Of a DNA stretch of 64,000 bases, positions 14,280 through 51,776 are shown piece after piece. Made by a program: the position numbers and the translations under genes. The stretch's first letter is position 1. Each line of letters starts with the position of its first letter. Under the pieces are notes generated by a model. It was not told the origin of the DNA. It made no database searches and saw only the letters and a program-made list of their open reading frames with translations. The DNA comes from Natrononativus amylolyticus (GTDB lineage: Archaea > Halobacteriota > Halobacteria > Halobacteriales > Natrialbaceae): the NCBI RefSeq assembly GCF_024362525.1, contig NZ_CP101460.1, positions 1 to 64,000 of the forward strand, in the 5' to 3' direction.

Positions 14280-14446
14280 TTATGGTCGTCCAACGTTTCT
14301 GACTATGGTCCGACTCTGCTGGCGCATGAATTGCTGCAGATACCAGGGCCCACCTGCGAACTGACCTGTCATCCCAGAAAACTTCCATCCACCCAAAGGC
14401 TGAACTTGAACCAGCGCACCGGTGGTAGCACTTTGTTCTCTGTTTG
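14280..14446 (-). pseudogene. Aldehyde dehydrogenase C-terminal remnant
   Basis: On the minus strand this reads 'SATTGALVQVQPLGGWKFSG' followed by 'GGPWYLQQFMRQQSRT' and a TAA stop at 14280. It closely matches the last 50 or so residues of the intact P5CDH-like enzyme at 61504-63102. Everything upstream of about 14446 is missing. It shows that a second copy of the ALDH once lay beside module copy A. Confidence 0.8.
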
Positions 14447-15217: not shown

Positions 15218-16228
15218 CTAATCGTATAGGTGACAGGCGCACAGTCGGTCGTCCTCACGACGGCGGAGTTCGGGAATGTCCTCTTCACAGACCGGCCCAA
15301 TATACTCCTGGCATCTGGTGTGGAACCGGCAACCAGAGGGTGGGTTCTCGGGACTGGGTGGGTTCCCTTCAAGAACGATCTGATTGTCCAGGGTCCCCTT
15401 CGATGCCCGCGGGACCGATGAGAGTAGCGCTTGCGTGTATGGGTGTTTAGGATCGTTGAAAAGTTCCTGGGTGGGCGCGACCTCAACGATTTTCCCAAGA
15501 TACATCACCGCCACTCGATCGCAAATGTGTTTAACGACGCTCATGTCGTGATTGATCACGAGATAGGTCAGATTGTATTCCTCTTGTAGGTCGTCAAGCA
15601 GATTGAGGATCTTCGCTTGTACAGAGACGTCGAGGGCGCTTGTCGGCTCGTCACAGACAATAAAACGAGGATTTACGCTCAGCGCGCGAGCGATCGAAAT
15701 CCGCTGTTGCTGACCGCCACTGAACTCGTGGGGTGCCCGGTGGAGATGATCGTTAGTGAGGCCCACGTCTTGGATGAGCGTTCGGGCGCGGTCCTCTCGC
15801 TCGTCCTTGGAGTGATCGGTAAGCCACTTCATGGGCTCCTCAATGATGTCGTTCACCCGCATACGCGGGTTGAGGCTCGAGGCGGCGTCCTGAAAGACGA
15901 TCTGCATCTCGCGTCGAAGTTCGCGTAAACGGTCCTTCGAGACAGCAGTGATATCCTCACCGTCAAAGAAGACCGAGCCGTCCGTTGGTTCTATCAATCT
16001 GAGAATGGACCGGCCAAGTGTCGATTTTCCACAACCCGATTCGCCAACCAAACCGAGTGTTTCTCCTTCACGAATCCGGAGGCTCGCACCATCAACCGCT
16101 TTGACATTCCCGACCTGCCGGTTGAGGACACCGCCTTTAACGGGATAATACTTTTTCAGGTCACGGACATCAACGAGTGCATCATCGGCGTTGGGACGGC
16201 TTGCCTGTGTGTGGTATGTGCCGGACAT
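15218..16228 (-). CDS. Dipeptide/oligopeptide ABC transporter ATPase (DppF/OppF type)
   Basis: The protein has 336 residues. Walker A is 'GESGCGKST', signature 'FSGGQQQRI', Walker B 'FIVCDEPTS', and the C-terminal oligopeptide-transporter extension has the Cys cluster ('CRFHTRC', 'GPVC'). It is the last gene of the copy-A operon and starts 3 bases after the stop of its DppD partner. With 16232-17293 it should form the nucleotide-binding heterodimer that energises the permeases at 17295 and 20514. The substrate is a small peptide or a related compound. Confidence 0.93.
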   Translation of the reverse strand: MSGTYHTQASRPNADDALVDVRDLKKYYPVKGGVLNRQVGNVKAVDGASLRIREGETLGLVGESGCGKSTLGRSILRLIEPTDGSVFFDGEDITAVSKDRLRELRREMQIVFQDAASSLNPRMRVNDIIEEPMKWLTDHSKDEREDRARTLIQDVGLTNDHLHRAPHEFSGGQQQRISIARALSVNPRFIVCDEPTSALDVSVQAKILNLLDDLQEEYNLTYLVINHDMSVVKHICDRVAVMYLGKIVEVAPTQELFNDPKHPYTQALLSSVPRASKGTLDNQIVLEGNPPSPENPPSGCRFHTRCQEYIGPVCEEDIPELRRREDDRLCACHLYD

Positions 16229-16231: not shown

Positions 16232-17293
16232 TTACAGTTCGACGTTGCTCGAGGCTTCGGTTTCGAGTTGGTGCTGGAAATCATCGCCGTGGACTTCCCA
16301 CGGCGGTGAGGTGGCACTCGTATCGGTGTATAGGTGGCAGCTTACGCGGTGATCCTCGGTTCCCTCGACCGTTTCGAGTTCCGGAACGACTTCATTGCAG
16401 GGGTCTCCATGGTACTGTTCGCAGCGAGAGGCGAACGGACAACCCGAGAGCGGTTCTCGAAGACTCGGTACGGTCCCCTCGATGACTGCGAGTCGATCCG
16501 CTTGAGAGTCGATCTTAGGCACGCTCTTCCACAATTGGCGAGTGTATGGGTGCAATGGATTATCGAAGAAGTCGTCAATGTCGCAGGTTTCGGCGACTGT
16601 TCCGGCGTACATTACCGCCAGGCGGTCGGCCAGTTCGCTGACCACCGGCAAATCGTGTGTAATGAAGATAATGCTAGTGTCGAACTCCGATCGAAGTTCC
16701 CGGAATAACCGGAGGATTTGCGCCTGGATCGTTACGTCGAGGGCGGTCGTCGGCTCATCGGCGATGAGCAGTTCTGGTTCGGTCACGAGTGCCATCGCGA
16801 TCATCACACGTTGGCGCATCCCACCAGAGAGCTCGTGGGGATACTCATCAAGAAGTCGCTGCGAATCAGGAAGCCCGCATGACTCGAGCGTCTCTCGAGC
16901 TTGCTCGCGGGCTTCAGCCTTTGAGCAGTCAGTGTGTGCCAGCAGCGGCTCGGTCACCTGTTTGCCGATCGTCAACGCCGGATTGAGCGACGTCATTGGA
17001 TCTTGGTAGATCATGTTGATCCGACTGCCCCGAATCCCGTTCAATTCGGATTCGGAAAGTGAGAGCAGATCGGTACCGTCAAACCGGATCTCCCCTGAGA
17101 CGATCTTTGCGGGCGGGGACTGGAGTAATCCCATAACCGAGAGCATAGTGACGCTTTTCCCACACCCCGATTCACCGATCACGCCAAGGACCTCGTCGTG
17201 CTCAACCTCGAACGAGACGCCGTTTAACGCGTGGACAGTTCCCTGTTCGGTGTCGAAACGGACGTGAAGGTCGTCGATCTCTAGTAGTGCCAT
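16232..17293 (-). CDS. Dipeptide/oligopeptide ABC transporter ATPase (DppD/OppD type)
   Basis: The protein has 353 residues from ATG 17293 ('MALLEIDDLHVRFDTEQG'), one base after the permease stop. Walker A is 'GESGCGKSV', signature 'LSGGMRQRV', Walker B 'LLIADEPTT', and the C-terminal 'CPFASRC' cluster is present. In-frame sequence upstream lies inside the permease gene and is not used. It pairs with the DppF-type ATPase downstream. Confidence 0.93.
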   Translation of the reverse strand: MALLEIDDLHVRFDTEQGTVHALNGVSFEVEHDEVLGVIGESGCGKSVTMLSVMGLLQSPPAKIVSGEIRFDGTDLLSLSESELNGIRGSRINMIYQDPMTSLNPALTIGKQVTEPLLAHTDCSKAEAREQARETLESCGLPDSQRLLDEYPHELSGGMRQRVMIAMALVTEPELLIADEPTTALDVTIQAQILRLFRELRSEFDTSIIFITHDLPVVSELADRLAVMYAGTVAETCDIDDFFDNPLHPYTRQLWKSVPKIDSQADRLAVIEGTVPSLREPLSGCPFASRCEQYHGDPCNEVVPELETVEGTEDHRVSCHLYTDTSATSPPWEVHGDDFQHQLETEASSNVEL

Positions 17294-17294
17294 T

Positions 17295-18197
17295 TTATCG
17301 TGCCTGTTTGGGGTCGAGTGCGTCTCGGAGTCCGTCACCGATTGCGTTGAACGCGATGATCGTCGCCATAATCGCAAGGCCGGGGAACGTCGAGATCCAC
17401 CACGCAGACTGGAGGTCACCGCGACCATCAGCAATCAACGCTCCCCACTCGGGCGTCGGCGGATGAACACCCATTCCGAGGAACGACAGCGCAGCGGACC
17501 ACAAAATAACCGTCGGCATGGTGAGCGTGGCGTAAACGATGATGCTCGAGGACACGTTAGGAAGGATATGGCGGAGGATAATCCAGCGGTCAGGGACGCC
17601 TGACGACCGAGCTGCCTCGATATAATCCTCCTCAGTGACGCTTTTAACGTCGCCGCGGACGATCCGGGTGAAACCGCGCCAGCCAACGAGACTGATCGCG
17701 ATAATGAGCGGCGTGAGACCGCCACCGAGCATCCCCGCAATCGCGAGCGCGAGCACGATTCCCGGGATAGAAAGACTGACGTCAACGATCCGCATGATGA
17801 CCGCCTCAACGTACCCTTCATAGTAGCCGGCGATAAGGCCGAGGCCAACGCCAATGATCGACTGAATGCCGACAATCACTACCCCAAGGAAGAGCGCATA
17901 TCGCGTTCCGTAGATCACCCGTGAGAATACATCACGGCCGTAGTTGTCGGTACCGAACGGATACTCGAGTGAAGGCGCCTGGTTGATGACCTCATAGTTC
18001 TGGGTCATCGGGTCGTGCGGCGCGACAAGTGGGGCGACGATGGCGACGACAGTAAACAACAGTACGTACAGGAAGCCAGCGATCGCGAGCTTGCTCTGGG
18101 CGAGTCGTCTGAGGATGATGTACTGGTCGTTCCAACGGTCAGAGTCTACGAGACCACTAGACTCGTGCCCAGTATCAACCTCCCCCGAATGTGCCAT
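17295..18197 (-). CDS. Dipeptide ABC transporter permease (DppC type)
   Basis: The protein has 300 residues. A cytoplasmic N-terminus precedes a first TM (about 36-58), a periplasm-side loop with 'HPFGTDNYGRDVFSR'-like sequence (here 'YPFGTDNYGRDVF') and five further TM segments. The EAA loop that docks on the ATPases is 'EAARSSGVPDRWIILRHILP'. It belongs to the operon with DppD/DppF downstream, but two non-transporter genes (M24 and DUF1028) separate it from the DppB permease and the binding protein upstream. Confidence 0.93.
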   Translation of the reverse strand: MAHSGEVDTGHESSGLVDSDRWNDQYIILRRLAQSKLAIAGFLYVLLFTVVAIVAPLVAPHDPMTQNYEVINQAPSLEYPFGTDNYGRDVFSRVIYGTRYALFLGVVIVGIQSIIGVGLGLIAGYYEGYVEAVIMRIVDVSLSIPGIVLALAIAGMLGGGLTPLIIAISLVGWRGFTRIVRGDVKSVTEEDYIEAARSSGVPDRWIILRHILPNVSSSIIVYATLTMPTVILWSAALSFLGMGVHPPTPEWGALIADGRGDLQSAWWISTFPGLAIMATIIAFNAIGDGLRDALDPKQAR

Positions 18198-18335: not shown

Positions 18336-19022
18336 TCAGTACTTGATCTCGAATCGATCGATCGACGCCGGCGGATCCTCGCCCCATTCTTCGTTCATAG
18401 AGCTATCATGTTCAGCCTGTGTCTCGAGAGCAGTCCGGTAGGCACGCCGGAGGCCTGCGATCGGCTTACCTGGGTCGTCGACACGGAGATTCCGGTGTAG
18501 TTTCGGCTCCGGACCGCGGACGAGTAGCGCCGCGCTTAGATTGTCGCCGCGTTTGTCCCCACCAGCCTCCTCACCCGCCTCAAGTGCCGACAGCAGTCGC
18601 TCCTCGAGCGGCCCGTCCGTTCGTTCAAATGTTCGACTCATCGCGTCGACGACTGCTTCACCCACGAGGAGATTGCCCGCAACGGTATGATCGGTGCCAG
18701 TTGCGTGACCTGCCCACGGCATCGACCGTTCACCTGTGTAGACAAATGACTCGCCGTCCAGTTCGACCCCATGGAGCTGGGTCCCCTCGGCACCCTCACG
18801 GTCGGCCAACAGCGTTTCGCAGGCTGTGGGAAGCGAGATATCGTGCTCAACGATGTCCAAAATTGGAATGCCGTACGAACGACCCGAGTCCCACGACTGC
18901 GTTGACAGCGCGACACCATCACCGACATACGGACAGACCGCTCCGACGGCGGGAAACACCGAAGCGATCGCAACACCAACAGTTCGTTCCGACGGGTCCC
19001 GTCCAACGATTGAAAACGTCAT
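18336..19022 (-). CDS. DUF1028 Ntn-hydrolase-like protein
   Basis: A protein of 228 residues with the DUF1028 signature: N-terminal 'MTFSIVGRDPSERTVGVAIA', 'FPAVGAVCPYVGDGVALSTQ', 'AGNLLVGEAVVDAM' and 'GDKRGDNLSAALLV'. The family has an Ntn-hydrolase-like fold and is usually of unknown function; it is often found with peptide or amide catabolism genes. Here it sits between the M24 protein and DppC inside the transporter operon, suggesting an amidase or acyl-transfer step on the imported compound. Spacing of about 140-165 bases on each side leaves room for internal promoters. Confidence 0.85.
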   Translation of the reverse strand: MTFSIVGRDPSERTVGVAIASVFPAVGAVCPYVGDGVALSTQSWDSGRSYGIPILDIVEHDISLPTACETLLADREGAEGTQLHGVELDGESFVYTGERSMPWAGHATGTDHTVAGNLLVGEAVVDAMSRTFERTDGPLEERLLSALEAGEEAGGDKRGDNLSAALLVRGPEPKLHRNLRVDDPGKPIAGLRRAYRTALETQAEHDSSMNEEWGEDPPASIDRFEIKY

Positions 19023-19186: not shown

Positions 19187-20404
19187 TCAATAATTAATGA
19201 TGTTGCTCTCGAGGTCTTTCGGATAGTAGGTAATCTCCTCTGTACCGGATTCCGTAATGAGAACGGTATCGGAGTGGCGGTAGCCGGCGACGTCCGGGAT
19301 GAACAGCGCGGGTTCGAATGTGTAGGCGTGACCAGGCTGCATGACTTCGTCGCTTCCACGGTCGATGAACCCTCGCTCGTGGCCCTCCATTCCCATGTTG
19401 TGGCCCGTATGATGCTGGGTGTACTCGAGCAGCCCCTGCTCCTTACAGTAGTCGTGAACCGCCTGATCAACCTTCGAAACGGGCACGCCAGGACCCGCAG
19501 TGTCAATTGCTAGCGTTTGGAGGGTCTTCATCTGCTCGAAGTAGTGGCGATGCTCGTCGCTCGCTTCGCCGATAAACATGGTACGCTCGAGTTCGCTCTT
19601 GTAGCCGCCGACGTTCGACGAGGCGCCGGTGATGATGATGTCTCCGTGTTCGAGGCGGCGGTTTTCGGTGAGACCGTGGGGTAGTGCCGTGTTCGGCCCG
19701 GAGAGGAAGCCACAGGACGCCGGGAACCCACCGCGAAGGTGGGAATCGTACCGCGGACCAAGGGTGTTTAGCATAGCCATGGAAGCGTCGAGGCTGGCGC
19801 GTTTGGCGACCCATAGTTCGTGCTTTCCAGGTTCCGCATAGTCGGCCAGGTAGCGATGAGCCAGGTTCCCCCACTTAGCCGACTCGCGCATTAACTCCAT
19901 CTCGACATCGGATTTCGCTGTGCGTAGTTCCTCGATCCACTCGACCGTCTCGACGTCGATTCCAGCAAACTCGCTTAGCGCCGGCCCCGAGTACCCCCAG
20001 AAACCGGGCGCACCGTCCATGTCAGCCGCCGCTGTCGAGATGCCGAGATCGTCGATCATCTCTGCGATTTTCTCCTCGGGCGTATCCGAGGGGTGACGGT
20101 AGTACGTGGACTCGTCCGTCGTGCTGCCGGGGTAATCATAGTAGACGTAGGTGGACTCCAAAACGGGGAATTCGTCGGAATCCGCACGCTCGAGTTCGAG
20201 TCGGGGAACCGTAATTGCGACCTCCTCGTCGGTAACGGCGAGGCAGACCGGCCGTTCGGTTTGGAGGTGGTGAAAACCGCTCAACCACTCGATCCCAATC
20301 GGTGAAAAGAGACAGAGTGCGTCGACGTCCGCCTCACTGATCTGCTCTCGGACGGTATCGATGCGTCGATCGAACTCAGCTGTCGGTACGCTAACTAACG
20401 ACAT
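19187..20404 (-). CDS. Creatinase-like M24 family hydrolase, type 1b
   Basis: A protein of 405 residues with a two-domain creatinase/prolidase fold. Of the five M24 metal ligands only His335 ('HHTGHNMG') and Glu364 ('FEPAL') are kept. The first Asp is Thr259 ('IIITGASSN'), the second is Glu271 ('KSELERTMF') and the last Glu is Ser378 ('GYRHSDTVL'). The 'xxLERT' and 'GYRxxDxxLI' patterns recall metal-free creatinase, and His243 in 'PHGLT' matches the position of its catalytic His. Creatinase cleaves creatine to sarcosine and urea, and ectoine hydrolases are related. The real substrate is unknown, but simple prolidase activity is unlikely. It is encoded between DppB and DUF1028. Confidence 0.8.
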   Translation of the reverse strand: MSLVSVPTAEFDRRIDTVREQISEADVDALCLFSPIGIEWLSGFHHLQTERPVCLAVTDEEVAITVPRLELERADSDEFPVLESTYVYYDYPGSTTDESTYYRHPSDTPEEKIAEMIDDLGISTAAADMDGAPGFWGYSGPALSEFAGIDVETVEWIEELRTAKSDVEMELMRESAKWGNLAHRYLADYAEPGKHELWVAKRASLDASMAMLNTLGPRYDSHLRGGFPASCGFLSGPNTALPHGLTENRRLEHGDIIITGASSNVGGYKSELERTMFIGEASDEHRHYFEQMKTLQTLAIDTAGPGVPVSKVDQAVHDYCKEQGLLEYTQHHTGHNMGMEGHERGFIDRGSDEVMQPGHAYTFEPALFIPDVAGYRHSDTVLITESGTEEITYYPKDLESNIINY

Positions 20405-20513
20405 GGTATGATACTCGAATACAACCCTCTTAAAGCTAGGAATGGCGGCGAGATAGACCACCGACAGACGAGGCTTGTGAACACCTGTCGAGGAAAGCGT
20501 AAAAACGGGGCGT

Positions 20514-21455
20514 TTAGTCGTAGTCGATCCGCGGATCCAGATAGCTATAAGCGATGTCGACCGCGAGGTTTGCGATCAGGACGATTACAGAGTAGACGAG
20601 TATGGTCCCCTGTACGACGGGGTAATCACGTTGAAGGACGGCGTCGACAAGCAGTCGGCCCATCCCCGGCCACGAGAACACTACTTCGATGATAACCGTT
20701 CCAGAGAAAATCAACGGAACTTGGAGGCCGATAAGCGTGATAACCGGAATCATCGCATTCTTCATTCCGTGAGTATAGATGACCGCTTTCGAGCCGATTC
20801 CCTTCCCACGAGCGGTACGGATGTAGTCCTCGTTCAGTATCTCGAGCATTGACGAGCGCATGAGCCGCGTCAGTAAGCCGGCCCGACGCGTCCCCGTGGC
20901 GATTGCTGGCAACAGAATGAACGACCACCACGTCAGTGTCAACATTATCCCGCCACGGCCGGACACCGGAAAGAACTGCCACCGAACGGCGAACAGGTAG
21001 ATGAGTACCAGGCCGAGCCAGAACGACGGCATCGACAGCCAGAAAATCGCGAATAGCATCGATGTATTGTCGACCCAGGAGTACTGGCGGACAGCACTGA
21101 TGACGCCGAGGGGCAATGCGATAATGAGCGTGAGTGCCATCGCAACGATAGCGAGTTCGAGCGTCGGTCCCAGCCGATCGAGAATCATGACTGCTACCGG
21201 CCGCCCCGTCTGAATCGACGTTCCGAGGTCGCCCTGCATGACCCCGAGCATCCAATCGACGTACCGAATGTGCGCCGGCTGGTCCAGCCCCATCTCTCGC
21301 TCGAGTTGGGCAACCGCTTCCGGGCTCGCACCGTCGCCGAGAGCCAGACGGGCCGGGTTACCGGGAGCGAAGTAGACGATCGACGAGATAACGATCGTGA
21401 CCCCGAACAGTACCGGGACCATCTGTAGCGTCCGTCGGATGGCGTATACGAGCAT
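20514..21455 (-). CDS. Dipeptide ABC transporter permease (DppB type)
   Basis: The protein has 313 residues with six TM segments. The N-terminal 'MLVYAIRRTLQMVPVLFG' is the classic DppB opening; the loop 'LDQPAHIRYVDWMLGVMQGD' and the EAA region around 'TARGKGIGSKAVIYTHGMKN' follow. It starts 2 bases after the binding-protein stop, so the two are coupled. The next gene on the strand is the type 1b M24 protein. Confidence 0.93.
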   Translation of the reverse strand: MLVYAIRRTLQMVPVLFGVTIVISSIVYFAPGNPARLALGDGASPEAVAQLEREMGLDQPAHIRYVDWMLGVMQGDLGTSIQTGRPVAVMILDRLGPTLELAIVAMALTLIIALPLGVISAVRQYSWVDNTSMLFAIFWLSMPSFWLGLVLIYLFAVRWQFFPVSGRGGIMLTLTWWSFILLPAIATGTRRAGLLTRLMRSSMLEILNEDYIRTARGKGIGSKAVIYTHGMKNAMIPVITLIGLQVPLIFSGTVIIEVVFSWPGMGRLLVDAVLQRDYPVVQGTILVYSVIVLIANLAVDIAYSYLDPRIDYD

Positions 21456-21457
21456 TC

Positions 21458-23131
21458 TTAGCTACGATCGACGTCGAGGACGTGAGTGTGATAGCGGTGC
21501 ACGTCACCCCACCAGGGGTGCTCGAGGAATCCTTCCGCACTGATCTCGTTTTTGTGGGAATAGAATTTTCGATACCCCAAGAGCGGAACGGCCGGAACCT
21601 CCTCGAGGATGATCTCCTGTGCTCTGAGGAGGTCTTCTTCCTGTTCGTCGTCATCCGGTTCGATGAACGCAGAATCGATACGGTCGTCGAACTCCTCATT
21701 ACGCCACATCGAGAAGTTATTCCCTCCCTCGTCGGCGTTGTGGTTGTCGCTATGGAAGCCCGACTCGAGCGTGTTGATCGCCAAGTGACCGCTGCCCAGC
21801 GCCATCGTCAAGAGGTTGTGCTCCAGTCCCTCCACCCGATCGTAGAGGAGACCTGACTCGAGGATTTCGAGGTTGACATCGAAGCCGATCTGACCGAGCA
21901 TGTCCTGAACGACCTCGCCGACGCTCGAGTAGGGGTCCATTTCGAACGCGAAGAACGAAAGCTCGAGGGGCTCGCCATCCCGCTCTCGGGTCTCTCCTTC
22001 TCCGTCGTTCTCCCAGCCGGCGTCGTCGAGCAATTCGCGAGCGGCGTCGGGATCGTACTCATGACCGACGTCTCGGGCGGTCTCTTCGTCCATCGCACCG
22101 ACCGCAACGTGTGGTGAGATGCTGTAGATTGGGTACGCCTCGTCGTTGACCGCCGCCGTAATGATCGCATCTCTGTCGACGCCATACGCGATCGCTTCCC
22201 TGACCTCTAACTCGTCAGTCGGCGGTGTTTCGACGTTCAAGACGAGGTAGTGTGGGTGAGCGTCGTCGACGCGAGTAATGTCGGTATTGTCGTGGTCTTC
22301 AACGTCGCCCGTGTCACTCGGAGACACCCACAGACTCGCATCGGCTGCCCCGACGGTAACTTCGTTGAGTAGCGTCGTCGGCTCCGGGACAATTCGAACG
22401 TGATACTCCTCGAAGTTTACCGGGCCCTGATTTCGAATGAAATCAGGGCCCCTGTCATAATCGTCGTTACGAACGTATACGATCTCTTCGTCCCTCGCCC
22501 ACTCTTCTAACTCGAGTGGGCCACTCCCGACAATAGTCTCCTGTCCGTACTCGTCACCCGCGTCCTCAACCGCTTCCCGCGAGGCGAACCCCATGTGCAC
22601 GTTCGAGAGATAGAAAGTAAACAGGGGGTGCGGTTCGTCGAAGTGAAACGTCAGTTCGTGGTCTCCTGTCTCCTCAATCGAATCGAGCGAGCCGAACTGC
22701 CAAGCGTTCGGTGAATTCTCGTGGGCGCGCTCGAGGTTCCATTTGGCGACGTCGGCGGTAAGATCGGTGCCATCGTGGAACTCGACACCTTCCTCGAAGG
22801 CAATCGTGTATTCGGTGTTGTCGTCGTTGGATTCGTACTCTGTCGCCAGCTGCGGGACCGGCTCAAAGTCGTGATCGATTGTGAACAGCCGTTCGTGAAC
22901 GGGGCTGAGGCACATCATTTCGGGGACCCGGACTGCTGTGTGAATGTCGAGTGTTCCTGGGTCAGAATCGAGCGCGTCTATGAACACCGTCGGGTCCTCT
23001 CCGCTCCCATCGTCGTCACCCGTTTCGCCGTTTTCATCCCCCATACAACCTGCTAATGCGAGAACACCACCGGCACCAATTGTCTGAACTACAGTTCGTC
23101 GGGTGAGCGTGTTTCTGCCACCATATGCCAT
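21458..23131 (-). CDS. Dipeptide ABC transporter substrate-binding lipoprotein (SBP family 5), copy A
   Basis: The protein has 557 residues. The ATG at 23131 gives a Tat signal ('TRRTVV') and lipobox 'LAGC' (Cys29), then an acidic linker and the family-5 fold ('YTIAFEEGVEFHDGTDLTAD', 'AIAYGVDRDAII'). An upstream in-frame extension lacks a signal and is not used. As first gene of the operon it should capture the substrate at the cell surface. The coding sequence contains a perfect 13-bp inverted repeat at 22422-22451. It is not closely related to the copy-B binding protein at 47719. Confidence 0.92.
   Translation of the reverse strand: MAYGGRNTLTRRTVVQTIGAGGVLALAGCMGDENGETGDDDGSGEDPTVFIDALDSDPGTLDIHTAVRVPEMMCLSPVHERLFTIDHDFEPVPQLATEYESNDDNTEYTIAFEEGVEFHDGTDLTADVAKWNLERAHENSPNAWQFGSLDSIEETGDHELTFHFDEPHPLFTFYLSNVHMGFASREAVEDAGDEYGQETIVGSGPLELEEWARDEEIVYVRNDDYDRGPDFIRNQGPVNFEEYHVRIVPEPTTLLNEVTVGAADASLWVSPSDTGDVEDHDNTDITRVDDAHPHYLVLNVETPPTDELEVREAIAYGVDRDAIITAAVNDEAYPIYSISPHVAVGAMDEETARDVGHEYDPDAARELLDDAGWENDGEGETRERDGEPLELSFFAFEMDPYSSVGEVVQDMLGQIGFDVNLEILESGLLYDRVEGLEHNLLTMALGSGHLAINTLESGFHSDNHNADEGGNNFSMWRNEEFDDRIDSAFIEPDDDEQEEDLLRAQEIILEEVPAVPLLGYRKFYSHKNEISAEGFLEHPWWGDVHRYHTHVLDVDRS
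22422..22451. repeat. Perfect 13-bp inverted repeat inside a coding sequence
   Basis: GGGCCCTGATTTC at 22422-22434 and GAAATCAGGGCCC at 22439-22451 with a 4-base loop. It falls in the binding-protein gene, where it encodes part of the 'GPDFIRNQGP' segment. A 13-bp perfect stem is longer than expected by chance. Confidence 0.8.
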
Positions 23132-23277
23132 GGTATGGTATGACCCATTCTGGTATTTATACTTATCGTTGACGTCGGTTATAGGAGGGGTGTCTAATTT
23201 AAATTGGGTACGTCCATCCGCCGTCAAGGCTATTCGACTGCGAACAGTAAAGTATTACCTCACCAATGTGAGAGTGG

Positions 23278-24480
23278 ATGACACGTCCATACCTTCCGTC
23301 GACAGCATACGATTCCCGCATCGACCGTGCCAGAGACGAACTCGCAGAGACTGATGCCGATGCGCTCTGTCTCTTCTCAGCGACGAGCATCGAGTGGCTC
23401 GTCGGCTTCTGGCACCTTCAGACCGAACGGCCGGTCTGTCTCACCGTTACCGACGAAACCGTACACGTCGCGGCCCCACGATTGGAACTCGAGCGTGCGG
23501 AGGTTGTGAGCCACATTGACCACGTACACCACTATTACGATTATCCCGGCGGAGGCGACGGGTATCCGCACCATCCCTCGCGAACTCCGGAAGAGACGAT
23601 CGACGACATGCTCGCAGAACTCAACGTTGAGACGGTTTATGCCGATATGGACGGCGCACCCGGCTACTGGGGCTACAGCGGACCTACCCTCTCCGATTTA
23701 GCTGACGTCGACGTAAAGACCGTCGACTGGGTGACCGAGTGGCGAAAGGAAAAGTCAGCTGCTGAAATCGAACTCGTGATGGAGTCCGGCAAGTGGGGGA
23801 ACCTGGCTCATCGCTACCTGGCCGAATACGCCGAACCAGGGAAACACGAGTTCTGGGTCGCCAAACGCGCCAGTCTCGACGCTTCTATGGCTATGTTTGA
23901 CACCTACGGCGACGAGTACCAGTCGCACCTCCGCGGCGGGTTTCCGGCCTCCTGTGGCTTCCTCTCCGGGCCGAACACGGCACTGCCCCACGGCCTCACC
24001 GAAAACCGCCGCCTCAAGGAGGGTGACGTTCTCGTGACGGGCGCCTCGTCGAACGTCGGCGGCTACAGGAGCGAACTCGAGCGTACCATGTTCGTCGGCG
24101 AGCCGAGCGACGAACAGGAACACTACTTTGAGCTGATGCTCGAGGCTCAGTCCATCGCCATCGACGAGAGTGGACCGGGCGTTCCGTGCTCGCACGTCGA
24201 CCAGGCGGTTCACGACTACTTTGACGAACAGGGCGTTCTGAAGTACGCCCAGCACCATACTGGACACAATCTGGGCATGGAGGCCCACGAGCGTGAGTTC
24301 ATCGATCGGGGAAGCGACGAGGTCATGCAACCCGGTCACGTCTACTCCATCGAGCCAGGAATCTACGTGCCGGATGAGGCAGGCTACCGCCACTCGGATA
24401 CCATCGTCATCACCGACGAGGGTATAGAGATGGTCACGTACTACCCACGAGAACTCGAGGGGAACATCATCACCTGGTAA
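23278..24480 (+). CDS. Creatinase-like M24 family hydrolase, type 1a
   Basis: A protein of 400 residues, a paralogue of the type 1b protein throughout ('SIEWLVGFWHLQTERPVCL', 'FPASCGFLSGPNTALPHGLT'). It shows the same loss of metal ligands: 'TGASSNVGGYRSELERTMF' and 'GYRHSDTIVI', with His and Glu kept in 'HHTGHNLGME' and 'SIEPGIYVP'. It is transcribed divergently from the binding-protein operon, 146 bases from its start, and converges on the metal-type M24 gene. Two such proteins in one module suggest a heteromer or two related substrates. The start ATG 23278 aligns with the paralogue's N-terminus. Confidence 0.8.
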   Translation: MTRPYLPSTAYDSRIDRARDELAETDADALCLFSATSIEWLVGFWHLQTERPVCLTVTDETVHVAAPRLELERAEVVSHIDHVHHYYDYPGGGDGYPHHPSRTPEETIDDMLAELNVETVYADMDGAPGYWGYSGPTLSDLADVDVKTVDWVTEWRKEKSAAEIELVMESGKWGNLAHRYLAEYAEPGKHEFWVAKRASLDASMAMFDTYGDEYQSHLRGGFPASCGFLSGPNTALPHGLTENRRLKEGDVLVTGASSNVGGYRSELERTMFVGEPSDEQEHYFELMLEAQSIAIDESGPGVPCSHVDQAVHDYFDEQGVLKYAQHHTGHNLGMEAHEREFIDRGSDEVMQPGHVYSIEPGIYVPDEAGYRHSDTIVITDEGIEMVTYYPRELEGNIITW

Positions 24481-24508: not shown

Positions 24509-25669
24509 TTAGATGGACCGTTCGCTCGGAGCGATCTCCTTCGGATACGTGACGTAGTTTTCGTAGCCGTTCGGGGTGATCTCGACAACGTCCTCGAGTC
24601 GGACACCTCCTCGTGAGGGGTCGTAGACGCCGGGTTCGACCGTGATCACGTTCCCGACCTGAAGTTCTTCGTCCGTCGAGAGAAACGGCCGTTCGTGGAT
24701 GCTTGCGCCGATGCCGTGGCCGACACCATGGTAGAGGCCGACCTCGACGTCGCCTGTCTCGAACCCGTACTCGGCGAGTTCGTCGGCGACGCGGTTCTGG
24801 ACGTTGCTGGCAGGCTGACCGGCACCGTCCTCGAGCACCTCCATCGCTCCCTCGAAGGCGTCCGACACTGCTGCGTACGCCTCCCGTTCCCATTCACCTA
24901 CTTCACCCGGTACGAACGTTCGGCTCAGATCGCCGTAGTAGCCGTGGGGGCCTCGTGGTCCGAGATCTAGCAGTACTGTTTCGCCGGGCGCGATCTCGTC
25001 GTAGCCGGTGAAGTGCAAGTCCGCACAGGAGGTCCCCGCGCCGATGACGGTGCTTCCCCCACTGAGGCCGTTACGGGCGAGCTCGGCGTTCACCTCTCGC
25101 CGGAGGCGTTCGGTCGTCAGCGCCTCTCCCTTCCACAGGAGTTCGTCGCCGTTGACGGTCGCCCTCGCGAGGATCGTCTCCGCCCTGGCCATTCCCCGCT
25201 GAGTCGCCGCTTCGATCGCCTCGAGCAGTCCGCGCTCCGCCGGCGTTTTGACGATCCGCCCCTCCTGGATCGAGTCGGCGAGCACTACATCGTAGCCGAG
25301 GTCTCGGAACGCCCGAACCGTCCCGTGTTTCGCGTTACCAGGGAGGAGCAGACGATTTCCGACGTCGTGGCGCTCAAGAACGGTGTACGCTCGTTCCGTC
25401 GGTGGCGGCCGCTCCGCGGTCGTCGTGTCGACGACGTCGCCCGGAAACTCACGTTCTGCCTGTTCTCCGAAGCGATCGGGGGCACAGAGGATGGCAGTGC
25501 TGTCGGTGTATACGAACGCGTAGTCGCGGTCAGGGCCGCCAAAGCGCGACAGATAGGACAACATTTCGTCGAAGCAGTCCCCGACGTGGACGTACGCATC
25601 GGCGTCATGAGCTGCGAGTTTATCGTTGATGAATTCGTACTCCGTGTTCAATCGTCTCGGATACTCCAT
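24509..25669 (-). CDS. M24 family aminopeptidase/Xaa-Pro dipeptidase, type 3
   Basis: The protein has 386 residues. All five metal ligands are visible: Asp in 'VLLDLGPRG', Asp in 'YYGDLSRTF', His in 'GVGHGIGAS', Glu in 'TVEPGVYD' and Glu in 'RLEDVVEI'. It should be a dinuclear-metal aminopeptidase P or prolidase-like enzyme. The ATG at 25669 ('MEYPRRLNTEYEF') is chosen because the decayed copy-B relative begins at the equivalent codon and a GAAGGGA purine run precedes it; an ATG 24 bases further upstream is possible. It is divergent from the aldolase gene. Confidence 0.85.
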   Translation of the reverse strand: MEYPRRLNTEYEFINDKLAAHDADAYVHVGDCFDEMLSYLSRFGGPDRDYAFVYTDSTAILCAPDRFGEQAEREFPGDVVDTTTAERPPPTERAYTVLERHDVGNRLLLPGNAKHGTVRAFRDLGYDVVLADSIQEGRIVKTPAERGLLEAIEAATQRGMARAETILARATVNGDELLWKGEALTTERLRREVNAELARNGLSGGSTVIGAGTSCADLHFTGYDEIAPGETVLLDLGPRGPHGYYGDLSRTFVPGEVGEWEREAYAAVSDAFEGAMEVLEDGAGQPASNVQNRVADELAEYGFETGDVEVGLYHGVGHGIGASIHERPFLSTDEELQVGNVITVEPGVYDPSRGGVRLEDVVEITPNGYENYVTYPKEIAPSERSI

Positions 25670-25804
25670 CGTGATTCCCTTCGATATGTTCATCCAAGAA
25701 GGTATCGACAGCCTACACAAGTGGTACGTAATCGTTGTTTCGTCACCGGCGCAACGAATACCGCAGTCGAAACTGCTTAGTTCGAATGCTTCCGTGGTAA
25801 CTGT

Positions 25805-26599
25805 ATGTCCACTGGAAAACGTGCGCGCCTCGACCGAATCGGGACGAACGGAAAAATTCTCAACGTGCCGATGGATCACGGAATTACGATCGGCGCTGTT
25901 GCCGGATTACGAAACATCGAGTCTACGATCGACGCCGTGACACGGGCCGGTGCCGATAGCATCCTCACACAGAAAGGGCTCGCCCCGCGCGTCCATCCGA
26001 ACAAGAACGGCGCCGGCTATATCATCCACGTCAACGCCTCAACGACACTTGGTCCGGACGCCAACGACAAGCGCCTCACCGGAACCGTCGAGGAGGCCGT
26101 TCGCCTCGGCGCCGACGCGGTTTCAATACACCTGAACGTCGGTTCCGACTCCGAGCCGCGCCAGCTCGAGCACCTTGCCGAACTCACCGCTGACGCCGCC
26201 AAGTATGGGATGCCAGTCCTCGCGATGACCTACGCTCGCGGCCCCGGCATTGACGAGCACGACCCGAACAGCCTCGGTCATGCAGTTCGCCTCGCTGAGG
26301 AGGCCGGTGCTGACATCGCGAAAACCGCCTACAGCGGAGATGCCGAGAGCTACCGGGACGTCGTAGAATCGACCGCCATTCCGGTCATTATGGCCGGCGG
26401 CTCCCCGGGAACCGACCGGGAGATGCTCGAGAACATCCGCGGCGCAATGGACGCCGGTGCCGCGGGCATTTCGATGGGGCGGTCGATCTTCCAGCACCCC
26501 GACTCCGAGGCGATGGCCCGGGCTGCTTCTAGTATTGTTCACGACGACCGTTCGCCTAGAGAAGCCCTTGAAATTGCCGAACTCGAGTCGTTAGACTGA
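25805..26599 (+). CDS. DhnA-type class I aldolase, copy A
   Basis: A TIM-barrel aldolase of 264 residues (COG1830/DhnA-LsrF-AroA' group). Catalytic candidates are Asp24 in 'PMDHGITIG', Tyr143 in 'MTYARGPG' and the Schiff-base Lys173 in 'DIAKTAYSG'; phosphate-binding 'MAGGSPG' and 'ISMGRSIFQ' follow near the end. Relatives make 2-amino-3,7-dideoxy-threo-hept-6-ulosonate or act on fructose bisphosphate or AI-2 phosphate. The cupin/SDR/aminotransferase context suggests a retro-aldol step in a catabolic pathway instead. Nearly the same protein is encoded at 45912-46703. Confidence 0.87.
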   Translation: MSTGKRARLDRIGTNGKILNVPMDHGITIGAVAGLRNIESTIDAVTRAGADSILTQKGLAPRVHPNKNGAGYIIHVNASTTLGPDANDKRLTGTVEEAVRLGADAVSIHLNVGSDSEPRQLEHLAELTADAAKYGMPVLAMTYARGPGIDEHDPNSLGHAVRLAEEAGADIAKTAYSGDAESYRDVVESTAIPVIMAGGSPGTDREMLENIRGAMDAGAAGISMGRSIFQHPDSEAMARAASSIVHDDRSPREALEIAELESLD

Positions 26600-26654
26600 G
26601 CCGACAACAGGGGTGGCTACCGGAACCGATTCTCGCGACCGACAGCCGTTGAGC

Positions 26655-27002
26655 TTACTCTGTTCGGTCGGTCCAGAAGTCGAAGCCTCGGCCAGGAGCG
26701 AAGACGTCAATCGCAACGGCGCGCTCGTCACCGGTGTTTTCGACACGGTGTGGCTCTCCTGATTCGAGGAGTACGGAGTCGTGTTGCTTGAGTCGGACGT
26801 CGTCGTTCTCGGTGAATACCGTGATTTCACCCTCGAGGACGACACAGACCTGTTCGTTCTCGTGATCGTGCATGGGAGAGGAGTGCCCAGGCGGCTTCTC
26901 GAACCACTCGAAGGTGAACTGGTCACTGCCCGCCAGCGAGACTCGGCGCCATCCTTCGTCCGGCTCGTACGTGTCTGCGTTATCGAATCGTACAGGTTTC
27001 AT
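26655..27002 (-). CDS. Cupin-domain protein, copy 2 (module A)
   Basis: A single cupin of 115 residues with 'PGHSSPMHDHENEQVCVV' (His-x-His, Glu ligands) and 'PHRVENTGDERAVAIDVF'. It converges on the aldolase gene, and the 43 bases before its start match those before the module-B cupin at 33 positions without a gap. It likely binds a metal and acts on, or senses, an intermediate of the module. Confidence 0.85.
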   Translation of the reverse strand: MKPVRFDNADTYEPDEGWRRVSLAGSDQFTFEWFEKPPGHSSPMHDHENEQVCVVLEGEITVFTENDDVRLKQHDSVLLESGEPHRVENTGDERAVAIDVFAPGRGFDFWTDRTE

Positions 27003-27045
27003 CTGCGGTGTATGACTCAGTCGAGGTAAAAAATCATAATTGTTT
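27003..27045 (-). promoter_or_regulatory. Conserved promoter block of module-A cupin
   Basis: Reading towards the ATG, the block starts AAACAATTAT, contains CGACTGAG and ATACAC, and aligns gap-free with 45233-45275 before the module-B cupin (33 of 43 identical by my count). The AT-rich start is a likely TATA region about 35-43 bases before the ATG. Confidence 0.55.
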
Positions 27046-27095
27046 GGGTTCTCCAGACCAGGAAGGATCAGAAGACAGTATTCAAGCGGTAAGAT

Positions 27096-27887
27096 CTATA
27101 AGTTCGACGCGGACGCGCCTCCGTCGATCGGCACCGCCACCCCGTTGAGGTAGCTCGAGCGCGGTGAGCTAAGAAACGCAACAACCTCTCCAAGCTCGGT
27201 CGGTTTGCCGATTCGCTCGAGCGGAATTCCCGAACCGCGGGCGTCGATACCGTCTTCGTAGGAGTCGTACTCGCCCCGGTCGACCGCCTGTTCGACCAGT
27301 TCCTGGATTCGGGAGGTTTCGTGGGGGCCGGGCAACACCGCGTTTGCTCGAACTTCGGGGGAGAGTTCCTTCGAGAGCGTCTTCTCGAGGCCGACGACGC
27401 TCATCCGAACCGAGTTCGAGAGAACCAACGAGTCAATTGCCTCCTTGACGCTCCGGGAGGTAATCGTCACTATTGTGCCGCCGTCGCCTTCACGGAGGGG
27501 GGCGGAGGCCTCGCGAACAAGTCGGACGACACTCATGACGAGCAGGTCGAATGCGTCGTACCAGTCCTCGTCATCCAGTTCGAGGAACGGTCCACTCGGC
27601 GGGCCGCCGGCGCTCGTTACGAGATGATCCAGGCGGTCAAACTCGTCGAGGGTCGTCTCAACGAGCGTTTCAATATCGTCCGGGTCCGTTAGATCACCTG
27701 AAACGCCGACGATCCGACCATCCCCGAGTGTCTCTAGATCGGTGACCGCCTCGTCAAGCGCGTCCTCGTCGCGCCCGTTGATGACGACGTTGGCGTTTTC
27801 TCGCGCGAAGACCTCAGCAGAGGCGTAACCGAGGCCGCCACTCGAAGCCGTTGTCAGTGCGACGTTTCCGGCGAGTTCTAAGCTCAT
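27096..27887 (-). CDS. Atypical SDR oxidoreductase lacking YxxxK, copy A
   Basis: The protein has 263 residues. The cofactor motif is 'TASSGGLGYASAEVFARE', the Asn motif is 'TSAGGPPSGPF' and the C-terminus is a classical SDR end ('AVPIDGGASASNL'). Where SDRs have YxxxK, the sequence reads 'VLSNSVRMSVVGLEKTLSK', i.e. Ser and Arg replace Tyr and Lys. Such FabG-like proteins exist as a subgroup, but their reaction is poorly defined. The start at ATG 27887 matches the copy-B gene, and both proteins are exactly 263 residues. It lies between the cupin and an aminotransferase remnant, as in copy B. Confidence 0.85.
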   Translation of the reverse strand: MSLELAGNVALTTASSGGLGYASAEVFARENANVVINGRDEDALDEAVTDLETLGDGRIVGVSGDLTDPDDIETLVETTLDEFDRLDHLVTSAGGPPSGPFLELDDEDWYDAFDLLVMSVVRLVREASAPLREGDGGTIVTITSRSVKEAIDSLVLSNSVRMSVVGLEKTLSKELSPEVRANAVLPGPHETSRIQELVEQAVDRGEYDSYEDGIDARGSGIPLERIGKPTELGEVVAFLSSPRSSYLNGVAVPIDGGASASNL

Positions 27888-27954
27888 ACCACTCATGCGA
27901 TATTCTCGAGCCCATATAACTCTTCGGCCGGGAGCTACCTTGGTCGGATATCCT

Positions 27955-28095
27955 GCCAGCACCGACATCTGGCTGAAACTCTTCAGTTGGATTACGTTGG
28001 CACTCGACTGGCTTGCCCCCGCGATCTCAACGTGAGCTGAATAGGTCCAGCTGGGGCCAGGAAGCAACACTTCGTCACCAGTATCAACTTTTAAT
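27955..28095 (-). pseudogene. Aminotransferase remnant (module A)
   Basis: Minus-strand sequence reads 'DTGDEVLLPGPSWTYSAHVE' and, after a frameshift, 'NPTEEFQPDV'. These match residues of about 118-157 in the intact aminotransferase of module B ('DSGDEVLIPDPSWTYGAHVK', 'DPDDGFQPDI'). Both ends of the gene are gone. Its position between the SDR and FAD oxidoreductase genes is the same as the intact gene's relative position in module B. Confidence 0.8.
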
Positions 28096-28211
28096 GGTTT
28101 GTATCCGTGTTGTCGGATTCATCCTCGGGGTCAAGCCCCGGGGTATTCTCCCCGACCGCCGATAACAATTCAATCGTTCTGAGAATCGCGAAGTAGTCTG
28201 AAACGGAATAC

Positions 28212-29366
28212 TCAATCGATAACGGTTCCTTCTTCGAGGGGGCTACCACCATCGAACCGGTCACTCGAAAGCATAGAGATATCGATGGAATGTGCTTCCC
28301 CGTCAGCGATAAGCTCGGCAACGAGTTGACCAGTTGCGGGTGCTTGCATAAACCCATGACCAGAAAAGCCAACGGCATTGATGAAGCCAGGAATGGCCTC
28401 CTCAATGATTGGATGGTGATCCGGCGTGACGGCATATAGCCCCGCCCATGACTGTCGAATCTCTGAACGAGGGCCAAAGTAATCAGCGCACTTTGCGGCC
28501 TCTTCAACTACTTGCGCTGCCCATTCGAGAGAAACGCGGTTAGAATACTCATCAGGATCCATCTCTGGGTCTAAGTCAGTAAAATGCCCCCCAGCCACGA
28601 CATTCCCATCACGTTCCGGGCGGAAGTGAACACTCGCATCAGCGTCAATTGTAAACGGAACAGTATCAGGAACCGACGTTTCAGGGTCAACGATTACGAG
28701 CTGACGTCGACGTGGCGAAACCGGCAGCGAAAGGTCCACCATTTTTCCGACCTGTGCCGCCCAGGGACCGGTAGCGTTAACGACGAAATCGGCGTCAATT
28801 CGGCCCTGATCCGTCTCAACACCGGAGACGCTCCCGTCGTTAGCGCAGATCACGTCTTTCACTTCGACCTTTGTTCGAATATCCACGCCCGCATCGTTTG
28901 CGGCGATCGAGAAACCCTGCAACCCTAGATGTGGGTCTGCAAATCCATCCGTTGGCGAATACGTTCCGCCGACAAATTCCTCAGTTCGAAGGGCAGGGCA
29001 AAGTTCGCTGGCTTGCTCGGGAGTAACGAACTCACTCGAGACCCCGATTTTGTTTTGCTTTCGGACATTTTCACGAAATCGATCCGCAGTCTCATCTGTT
29101 CGAGCGAGGAAGAGATAACCGGGTTGTCGATAGGTGATCTCCGTATCGAATTCCTCATCAAAGGTTTCCCAGACTTCGATACTCGCAAGGGACAACTCCG
29201 CGCTCACAGGTGAGGAGAACTGTGCTCGAATACCGCCATTAGCTCGGTCAGTACTTCCTGATCCGAGGGTCCCTTTCTCAAGAACAGTGACATCGACGTT
29301 ACGCTGTTTGAGATAGTACGCACTTGCAAGTCCGACAATCCCCCCTCCAATAATGACAGTGTGCAT
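28212..29366 (-). CDS. DAO-family FAD-dependent oxidoreductase, copy A
   Basis: The protein has 384 residues from ATG 29366. The dinucleotide motif is VIIGGGIVGLAS (Gly7-x-Gly9-x-x-Gly12), followed by the DAO-family 'GSGSTDRANGGIRAQFSSP' and a C-terminal 'GFINAVGFSGHGFMQAPATG' FAD-binding loop. The family includes D-amino-acid dehydrogenase, glycine/sarcosine oxidase and hydroxyproline or betaine demethylating enzymes; it oxidises C-N bonds of amino or imino acids. The copy-B protein (40590) has identical length and end. The TATA box and leaderless spacing are also conserved between copies. Confidence 0.88.
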   Translation of the reverse strand: MHTVIIGGGIVGLASAYYLKQRNVDVTVLEKGTLGSGSTDRANGGIRAQFSSPVSAELSLASIEVWETFDEEFDTEITYRQPGYLFLARTDETADRFRENVRKQNKIGVSSEFVTPEQASELCPALRTEEFVGGTYSPTDGFADPHLGLQGFSIAANDAGVDIRTKVEVKDVICANDGSVSGVETDQGRIDADFVVNATGPWAAQVGKMVDLSLPVSPRRRQLVIVDPETSVPDTVPFTIDADASVHFRPERDGNVVAGGHFTDLDPEMDPDEYSNRVSLEWAAQVVEEAAKCADYFGPRSEIRQSWAGLYAVTPDHHPIIEEAIPGFINAVGFSGHGFMQAPATGQLVAELIADGEAHSIDISMLSSDRFDGGSPLEEGTVID

Positions 29367-29388
29367 GGAACACGATACCCAGTCATCG

Positions 29389-29395
29389 TATATAA
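29389..29395 (-). promoter_or_regulatory. TATA box of FAD oxidoreductase gene, copy A
   Basis: On the minus strand AGTTCTTATATACGATG with TTATATA 22 bases before the ATG, identical in core sequence and spacing to the copy-B promoter. It implies a leaderless or nearly leaderless transcript. Confidence 0.7.
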
Positions 29396-29574
29396 GAACT
29401 TGCGCCGCACAAATCAGGAAAGGTAGAGTCAAATGTCAATATACGGGTCGTATGCATCGACGATCGCTATCTACGACAACCTATGACACTCACTCGAGTC
29501 GGTGACTGACGAGATCGAGTGCTGGGCGGGGAGCTGGCTCGAGGAGTCGGAGCGACGAATAGCGGTGCGTCTTT

Positions 29575-40425: not shown

Positions 40426-40560
40426 GCAAATCAATCGTCACGAACGAGGTTCAGATACTCGAGTACTTGCTGAACCACACACCTAGTATAGCGGTAGATT
40501 GCGAATCGACTAGAGTTTCGCAGATCTAAGCGGTGTTGTCGGAGATACTGACACCAGTTC

Positions 40561-40567
40561 TTATATA
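40561..40567 (+). promoter_or_regulatory. TATA box of FAD oxidoreductase gene, copy B
   Basis: TTATATA within AGTTCTTATATACGATG, 22 bases before ATG 40590; the same core and spacing as in module A. Confidence 0.7.
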
Positions 40568-40589
40568 CGATGGCTAGCAATCGGTTATC

Positions 40590-41744
40590 ATGCATACGGT
40601 GATCGTTGGTGGCGGAGTTATCGGACTATCGAGTGCGTACTACCTGAGAAAACGCGGCATCGAGGTGACAGTTCTAGAGAAGTCTACGCTCGGTTCGGGG
40701 AGCACAGACCGAGCAAACGGAGGTATTCGAGCCCAGTTTTCGTCTCCGGTTAGCGCAAACCTTTCACTGGCGAGTATCGACGTCTGGGAACGCTTCGAAG
40801 CCGACTTTGGCATAGACCTCGAATACCGCCGTCCAGGATATCTGTTCCTCGCTCGGACGGAGACCACGGCCGAACGGTTCCGCGAAAACGTTCGAAAACA
40901 GAACGAGCTCGGCGTGCCGAGCGAATTTGTGAGCCCCGAACGGGCCGCGTCGCTCTGTCCCGAACTTCACACCGACGAGTTCGTTGGTGGGGCGTATTCG
41001 CCGACGGACGGCTTTGCAGACCCTCATCTCGGCCTACAGGGGTTCTCTATCGCGGCAACCGAGGCCGGTGCCGAAATTCGGACGAAGGTCGAGGTGACCG
41101 ACGTCGAACTCGATGGAACCGGGCAGGTGCGCGGCGTCACGACGACAGACGGGGCGATCGATGCCGATTACGTCGTCAACGCAGGGGGCCCTTGGGCTGC
41201 CGAAATCGGTGCAATGGCCGGACTATCGCTCCCAATCTCACCTCGGCGAAGAAAGCTAGTCATCGTTGATCCGGCGATCCCCGTCTCTGACGACGTCCCG
41301 TTCACAATCGATGCGGACGCCAGTGTTCACTTCCGCCCAGAACGAAACGGAAACGTCGTCGCTGGTGGCCATTTCTCCGAGTCTGACCCTGAAATGGATC
41401 CCGATCGGTTCTCGGAACGTGTTTCACTCGAGTGGTCAGCGCAAGTCATCGAGGAGGCAGCAGAGTGCGCTGGCTACTTTGGACTGGATTCTGAAATCAG
41501 ACAATCGTGGGCGGGATTATACGCGGTGACACCCGACCACCATCCCATTATCGAAGAATCCATTCCGGGATTCATTAACGCGGTTGGTTTTTCTGGGCAT
41601 GGGTTTATGCAGGCACCTGCTACGGGAAAACTCGTTGCTGAAATCGTTGCCGATGGGGAGCCACACTCGGTCGATGTGTCGATGCTTTCGAAGGATCGGT
41701 TCGATGGCGGAAGTCCGCTTGAAGAAGGTACGGTGATTGACTGA
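40590..41744 (+). CDS. DAO-family FAD-dependent oxidoreductase, copy B
   Basis: A protein of 384 residues, the twin of 28212-29366. It shows VIVGGGVIGLSS (Gly7, Gly9, Gly12), 'GSGSTDRANGGIRAQFSSP' and 'GFSGHGFMQAPATGKLVAE', and ends 'FDGGSPLEEGTVID' as in copy A. It is expected to oxidise an amino or imino acid (sarcosine, proline-like or D-amino acid) with FAD, passing electrons to oxygen or the respiratory chain. It leads the module-B genes and is divergent from IclR. Codon third positions are less GC-rich than in the core region. Confidence 0.88.
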   Translation: MHTVIVGGGVIGLSSAYYLRKRGIEVTVLEKSTLGSGSTDRANGGIRAQFSSPVSANLSLASIDVWERFEADFGIDLEYRRPGYLFLARTETTAERFRENVRKQNELGVPSEFVSPERAASLCPELHTDEFVGGAYSPTDGFADPHLGLQGFSIAATEAGAEIRTKVEVTDVELDGTGQVRGVTTTDGAIDADYVVNAGGPWAAEIGAMAGLSLPISPRRRKLVIVDPAIPVSDDVPFTIDADASVHFRPERNGNVVAGGHFSESDPEMDPDRFSERVSLEWSAQVIEEAAECAGYFGLDSEIRQSWAGLYAVTPDHHPIIEESIPGFINAVGFSGHGFMQAPATGKLVAEIVADGEPHSVDVSMLSKDRFDGGSPLEEGTVID

Positions 41745-41960
41745 TCGAGGTGTTTTCACAAGTTGCCGCTGTACGCCAACTGTGTGGCAGGTGGTTGATG
41801 GTACATTGGTACAGAATTCCTGTGAATCAAGCACCATTTTGAATCTGTTACTCATAGGGGTGGGGCGTGTATCTCTCTTTCCGTGGGAGATAGAGGAGGG
41901 ATCGACGTTGAAGCGATACCGGCCGAACAGAAAGTGAATTGACCCGTGATAGCTCCGAAC

Positions 41961-41970: not shown

Positions 41971-41991
41971 GATGGGGGCACATGACATTCT

Positions 41992-42246: not shown

Positions 42247-42258
42247 ATCAAAAACAGC

Positions 42259-51774: not shown

Positions 51775-51776
51775 CA

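Follow-up and report, generated by a model that had tools for sequence, protein, structure and literature searches.

A conserved M24 subfamily with a predicted altered catalytic centre, linked to a peptide-type importer in haloarchaea

The region described here, referred to as the window, comprises bases 1–64000 of the 240,954-base contig C3 (NZ_CP101460.1) of the haloarchaeon Natrononativus amylolyticus. It encodes two M24 proteins, mA and mB, that have lost most of the metal ligands of their family and are linked to a peptide-type ABC importer. Both open reading frames (ORFs) are intact and lie where the initial annotation had placed them. The gene for mA, a ligand-depleted protein of creatinase fold (405 aa, 19187–20404, minus strand), lies within the transporter operon with DppB on one side and DUF1028 on the other; its listed ORF begins at a GTG at 20461, but homology places the start at the ATG at 20404. 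The gene for its ligand-depleted paralogue mB (400 aa, 23278–24480, plus strand) is divergent from that of the solute-binding protein (SBP). The two proteins are 66% identical, and both contain a Peptidase_M24 domain (PF00557; 2e-37 and 3e-42) plus Creatinase_N (PF01321). The operon forms a co-directional run on the minus strand from 23113 to 15218, consisting of a family 5 (peptide/nickel type) solute-binding lipoprotein (21458–23113), a DppB-type permease (20514–21455), mA, a DUF1028 protein (18336–19022), a DppC-type permease (17295–18197) and two ATPases of DppD type (16232–17434) and DppF type (15218–16228). Two canonical M24 proteins that keep all five metal ligands are also encoded in the window. 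One of these, mC (24509–25693, minus strand), is a recurrent partner of mA/mB-type proteins, and the other, mD (60201–61535), adjoins a Delta1-pyrroline-5-carboxylate (L-glutamate gamma-semialdehyde) dehydrogenase (P5CDH; 61453–63102, plus strand; best model D1pyr5carbox2, with a score under its cut-off).

The metal ligands of E. coli PepQ are Asp246, Asp257, His339, Glu384 and Glu423 (PMC4213023). Those of human prolidase are Asp276, Asp287, His370, Glu412 and Glu452, with a tightly bound metal near His370 and a weakly bound one near Asp276 (PMC8438212). By sequence alignment and a global structural match, on which the residue equivalences given here rest, these positions (Asp1, Asp2, His, Glu1 and Glu2) correspond in mB to Gly255 (after Thr254), Glu266, His330, Glu359 and Ser373, and in mA to Gly260, Glu271, His335, Glu364 and Ser378. 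The loss of three of the five ligands noted in the initial annotation is thus borne out, and neither protein carries the canonical five-ligand set of M24B; mC and mD, in which the set is intact, provide an internal control within the window. With these residues mA and mB are predicted to be unable to build the known dinuclear site. The weak metal site is gone from mB because Gly255, at the position of Asp276 in the human enzyme, and Ser373 are changed. The tight site keeps three residues, Glu266, His330 and Glu359, with Asp replaced by Glu at 266. A metal-free state can only be inferred for mA and mB, since these three residues could still bind one metal. His238 and His337 of mB are equivalent to His255 and His377 of human prolidase, which hold the Gly-Pro substrate (PMC8438212), and both are invariant. 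Glu268, in the SELERT (LERT) segment of mB, is equivalent to Glu262 of creatinase (1chm) and is replaced by Thr or Ser in canonical enzymes.

Across 67 haloarchaeal members, which form three clades, H238, E266, E268, H326, H330, H337, E359, R371 and S373 are invariant, and together with G255 and H372 they make up the key residues of mB. At the Asp1 position two clades have Gly and one has Ile, and none of the 67 homologues has Asp. Values of dN/dS are low, at 0.09 between mB and its N. magadii counterpart, 0.11 between mB and that of Natrialba SSL1, and 0.23 between mA and mB. Because of these values and the near invariance of the altered site, the function of mA and mB has been kept without decay. 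A pseudogene or a sequencing artefact is ruled out on the same grounds, the only decayed copy being the one at 46.8–47.5 kb.

An AlphaFold2 (AF2) model of mB (pLDDT 90.3, pTM 0.89) was ranked against solved structures using VIA-align. The predicted fold matches creatinases best (1chm, Z 41.6, root mean square deviation (r.m.s.d.) 2.1 for 374 aligned residues; 7yto, Z 41.5; 1kp0, Z 41.3), with r.m.s.d. values of 2.1–2.3 over about 375 residues. The best prolidase, a Xanthomonas Xaa-Pro dipeptidase, follows with Z 39.5, about 2 below the creatinases, then the ectoine hydrolase EutD/DoeA (Z 36) and the M24-like domains of Spt16 (Z 30–32). The lead of creatinase over the best prolidase in these model matches, together with the LERT glutamate, upholds the resemblance to creatinase that had been proposed in the initial annotation. 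Foldseek alone gives prolidases and creatinase intermixed, and phmmer places prolidases at the top (3q6d, 6e-34) with creatinase lower (1chm, 2e-22). At the sequence level, identity with creatinase amounts to just about 24%, and the tree path to creatinases is 4.3–4.6 substitutions per site. In the trees creatinase lies on a long branch near yet outside the main clade (supports < 95); the mA/mB family and creatinase fall on one side of a branch with a support of 90 (unstarred), and a grouping of creatinase with canonical M24 proteins is not rejected (approximately unbiased test, p 0.085). The modelled scaffold of mA and mB is therefore best called creatinase-like, their identity as creatinases not being demonstrated.

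In creatinase (EC 3.5.3.3; 1chm, 7yto, 1kp0) we take His232 to be catalytic, Glu262 and Glu358 to form a guanidinium clamp, and Phe62, Ala260 and His376 to lie around the substrate. Both Asp ligands are likewise lost in creatinase, and His232, Glu262 and Glu358 align with the invariant H238, E268 and E359 of mB; the equivalent of Arg64 is also kept. In contrast, Phe62, Ala260 and His376 are replaced in mB by Thr49, Glu266 and Ser373, and the mA/mB family occupies a separate long branch and has proline and peptide genes as neighbours instead of creatinine and sarcosine genes. The prolidases PepQ and aminopeptidase P (M24B) are the best sequence matches (E about 1e-34) and have the same two-domain fold; the second-shell residues H238, H326, H337 and R371 and the proline context are likewise in common. 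The family differs from them in the replacement of Asp1, Asp2 and Glu2, and reaches only 118–127 bits with the NCBIfam model PepQ_Arch against a cut-off of 630. Ectoine hydrolase (DoeA/EutD; 6twk, 6yo9) is also an M24 fold with lost ligands and a hydrolase for an imported small solute. However, it has different residues at nearly all of the active-site positions, which makes the opening of ectoine suggested in the initial annotation unlikely. The DoeA models are not passed (TIGR02993, 58–63 bits against 613; NF038259, 41–58 against 575), and an identity of mA and mB as DoeA-like ectoine hydrolases is ruled out by the residues and these scores. No doeB is annotated in the N. magadii locus, and the ORFs of the window were only partly scanned for it. 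A separate DoeA-like M24 gene with a signature close to ectoine hydrolase and all metal ligands lost occurs elsewhere in the same genome (C1:2247979–2248608).

The family is not unique to the window, as 116 of the 292 genomes sampled from the class (~40%) contain a match to mB at E < 1e-80. A scan of genome contigs, which reaches close relatives only, gave 31 loci, all haloarchaeal, and in a phylum-wide sample the family is haloarchaeal among the matches listed. Three clades are distinguished: clade T (transporter-linked), 62–83% identical to mB; clade P (symporter-linked), about 40–46% identical; and clade C (chromosomal), about 54–62% identical and including a paralogue in the same genome (C1:2319217–2320407). 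A clade P query picked up the same Glu/Glu/His/Glu/Ser signature on Deinococcus plasmids; the six proteins read, which also carry the family name 'Xaa-Pro peptidase', are about 40% identical to mB and have Phe in place of His46. These sequences place mA and mB in a conserved, so far unrecognised M24 ('pita-bread') subfamily with an altered catalytic centre, common to haloarchaea and Deinococcus. The observation made in the initial annotation is confirmed, and is more general than supposed. NCBI names such proteins 'Xaa-Pro peptidase family protein', so that about 40% of the sampled haloarchaeal genomes carry a 'metallopeptidase' that is predicted to be unable to form the known dinuclear site. 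A diverged paralogue in Natrinema zhouii has Lys, Leu and Cys at positions 266, 337 and 373 and adjoins SolA. A second, very diverged ligand-depleted M24 clade, with an EEERT motif, is found at four loci (L084, 11545–12708; L093, 10859–12025; L094, 11824–12987; L123, 10175–11341), beside or near a clade P gene and a COG1228-type Xaa-Pro dipeptidase.

Gene neighbourhoods were compared by searching for 21 markers within about 10 kb of each locus. Clade T gave 11 rows and 10 distinct loci, L015 and L076 apparently being one contig (both 288,182 bases). Among these 10 loci DppB is present at eight, SBP at seven, DUF1028 at five and an mC-type M24 at four, with proline dehydrogenase (ProDH) at three and P5CDH, DAO and aldolase at two each. 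The 12 clade P loci have a sodium/solute symporter (PutP-like) in nine cases, an amidohydrolase-type Xaa-Pro dipeptidase in four (NCBIfam NF051886, score under the cut-off), ProDH in two, and P5CDH and dipeptidyl-peptidase IV in one each; two more P-type loci have ProDH at 0.9 kb (G076) and 2.3 kb (G166). None of the 21 markers was found at the 28 clade C loci, and clade C was therefore dropped as a clue to function. Proline-catabolism or Xaa-Pro genes thus occur at 9 of the 22 separate loci in clades T and P versus 0 of 28 in clade C. The Fisher p value of 2.7e-4, computed on 9/23 with the duplicate locus left in, is, like the other neighbourhood p-values, a guide only because marker choice followed inspection of the loci and the genomes include non-independent relatives. 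ProDH flanks seven T- or P-type loci, against an expectation of about 0.7% per locus. On the N. magadii plasmid pNMAG02 the genes for SBP, Dpp, DUF1028, mB and mC stand in one continuous series with those for proline dehydrogenase and an aldehyde dehydrogenase. At all six Deinococcus plasmid loci (L115–L120) a peptide-type ABC importer and IclR lie beside the gene, with DUF885, S10, M20 and membrane dipeptidase genes variously as peptidase neighbours in most cases; ProDH is annotated in none of these six. The importer link of the initial annotation is consequently real and recurrent, in haloarchaea and in Deinococcus alike.

The initial annotation had also drawn on a DAO-family FAD oxidoreductase in the window (28212–29432, minus strand) in suggesting a creatine-to-sarcosine-to-glycine route. 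This protein falls in the same superfamily as sarcosine oxidase beta. Its best solved relative is chain B of 1y56 (E 1.6e-63), followed by dimethylglycine dehydrogenase (9e-37). Chain B is deposited as sarcosine oxidase, but entry 1y56 is the L-proline dehydrogenase complex of Pyrococcus horikoshii (cited in PMC1949818). By sequence, an archaeal L-proline dehydrogenase subunit is thus the nearest relative of the DAO of the window. ProDH, P5CDH, PutP-like symporters and Xaa-Pro dipeptidase are moreover the recurrent partners, so that the creatine reading for the most part lacks support; the earlier interpretation as a whole is partly supported. The neighbourhood evidence favours peptide or amide derivatives of proline as substrate. 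The DAO, P5CDH, an aminotransferase (42801–44192) and an aldolase would fit a hydroxyproline-type route.

We put at slightly under even the chance that mA and mB are cytoplasmic hydrolases, metal-free or with one metal, which act on an imported N-substituted compound and release from it a secondary (imino) amino acid, with proline the likeliest. The adjacent Dpp-type importer would bring in a small N-substituted compound such as an Xaa-Pro dipeptide, an N-acyl-proline or a relative. mA and mB would then cleave the C–N bond at the imino nitrogen; His238 would serve as acid/base, and Glu268 and Glu359 would grip the cationic end of the substrate in the fashion of creatinase. Catalysis would be metal-free, which is preferred, or would use one metal at Glu266/His330/Glu359. 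Dipeptides would be finished by mC, and the freed proline may be oxidized by the DAO/proline-dehydrogenase-like flavoprotein (ProDH in other genomes) and then converted by P5CDH to glutamate. Several points weigh against this proposal. Clade C has the same site and no informative neighbours, which leaves room for a chemistry unconnected with proline, and because the canonical prolidases mC and mD are already present, mA and mB must do something different. ProDH of the PF01619 type is absent from the window, the sole copy in the genome lying on C1, and P5CDH is 37 kb away from mB. Finally, at the locus of Haladaptatus pallidirubidus (L124), a gene whose product is 70% identical to mB lies beside an mC-type M24, caprolactamase-like genes and an N-carbamoylase, with a creatininase-family gene and a sodium/proline symporter, neighbours pointing to cyclic amides or ureides as possible substrates.

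The last locus bears on two other explanations. In one of these mA and mB would open rings by hydrolysis ahead of the metal prolidase mC, acting on cyclic amides or amidines such as lactams, hydantoins or cyclic Xaa-Pro dipeptides. DoeA, a creatinase-like M24 enzyme, catalyses opening of the ectoine ring (PMC3187862), and the loci of the family also encode an enzyme that could finish the job, either a canonical M24 or an Xaa-Pro dipeptidase of amidohydrolase type, which together with the caprolactamase-like and N-carbamoylase genes of L124 lends the idea some weight. The active site and the structural score of the model are nevertheless remote from DoeA and a cyclic substrate has no direct support, so we consider ring opening improbable. 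The other explanation is that of a creatinase or another guanidino amidinohydrolase, which would act on imported creatine, or on an N-amidino amino acid like it, to yield urea plus a secondary amino acid that the DAO would oxidize. It draws on the top structural rank of the model, the kept clamp, histidine and Arg64 equivalents, the superfamily of the DAO, the creatininase-family gene near the T-clade relative L124 and the SolA gene adjoining the diverged paralogue. The creatininase-family protein of L124, however, reaches 100 bits with the creatininase model, whose cut-off is 235. The low identity and long tree path, the three differing residues around the substrate, the closeness of the DAO to proline dehydrogenase and neighbours that act on proline rather than on sarcosine or urea make this very unlikely. 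In the N. magadii locus no creatininase, sarcosine oxidase or urea genes are annotated, although a systematic search across loci was not made. Co-occurrence with the creatininase family was tried as a test of the creatine route and is uninformative because PF02633 is present in 292 of 292 haloarchaea.

It is also conceivable, if rather doubtful, that mA and mB are Xaa-Pro dipeptidases of the usual type working with one metal bound at the tight site. Three of its four residues remain, the change from Asp to Glu is conservative, the prolidase second shell is invariant and the neighbourhood is one of proline and peptides. Yet Asp1 and the bridging Glu2 are lost in every member, the new invariant Glu268 is shared with metal-free creatinase, and we know of no mono-metal prolidase with such a site. 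A non-catalytic role, as a scaffold, sensor or partner of mC, would account for the lost ligands and for the position of mA and mB beside an intact M24, and the M24-like domain of Spt16, itself non-catalytic, has the same fold as the model; the invariance of the putative catalytic residues and the wide occurrence of the family on chromosomes without an adjacent mC render it quite unlikely. The proposed hydrolysis of imported proline compounds by mA and mB would offer a concrete import-to-glutamate route for such compounds in haloarchaea, among which P5C dehydrogenase has been found in only 1 of 10 genomes (PMC3102087). If it proceeds without a dinuclear centre it would represent a further evolutionary escape from metal chemistry and correct a large block of annotation. 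More tentatively, and on balance somewhat against the odds, haloarchaea and Deinococcus may share a class of metal-free or one-metal M24 hydrolases that cleave N-acyl or cyclic proline derivatives via a creatinase-like His/Glu/Glu centre. This would be a third pita-bread chemistry without a dinuclear site, besides creatine and ectoine hydrolysis, hidden under the 'Xaa-Pro peptidase' name.

Open-access literature on creatinase in haloarchaea, metal-independent M24 proteins and DUF1028 yielded nothing useful. On Sulfitobacter plasmids (L100, L101) the DUF1028 gene shares its operon with a dipeptide ABC transporter and a gene of the gamma-glutamyltransferase family, which suggests that DUF1028 proteins are partners of dipeptide or amide import in general. 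Creatinase genes are common on plasmids, with about 300 Klebsiella and 100 Acinetobacter records annotated as M24 or aminopeptidase P, and at L096 (9338–10555) a creatinase gene adjoins an amino-acid ABC importer.

The window contains several further genes. Between mC and the DAO lie a DeoC/DhnA-type class I aldolase (25805–26599, plus strand), which two other loci of this kind also have, a small cupin (26655–27002, minus strand), with two more copies at 11982 and 45276, and an SDR dehydrogenase (27096–27890, minus strand), with a second copy at 44346. The genes for DAO, SDR, cupin and aldolase occur twice (25805–29432 and 40557–46703), with their relative order preserved and 77–87% identity. 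Both aldolases (the second at 45921–46703) resemble 2-amino-3,7-dideoxyheptulosonate synthase, and the first exceeds the NCBIfam cut-off for that enzyme (345 versus 299); the name is possibly wrong because the genes sit in catabolic modules. A P5CDH fragment is found at 14283–14444 and a dipeptidyl-peptidase IV-type S9 peptidase at 54435–56684 (minus strand). The decayed remnant (46825–47522, plus strand) joins an mC-like N-terminal part, interrupted by an in-frame stop, to frameshifted mA-like pieces, and sits upstream of a second Opp-type (peptide ABC) transporter at 47644–54207.

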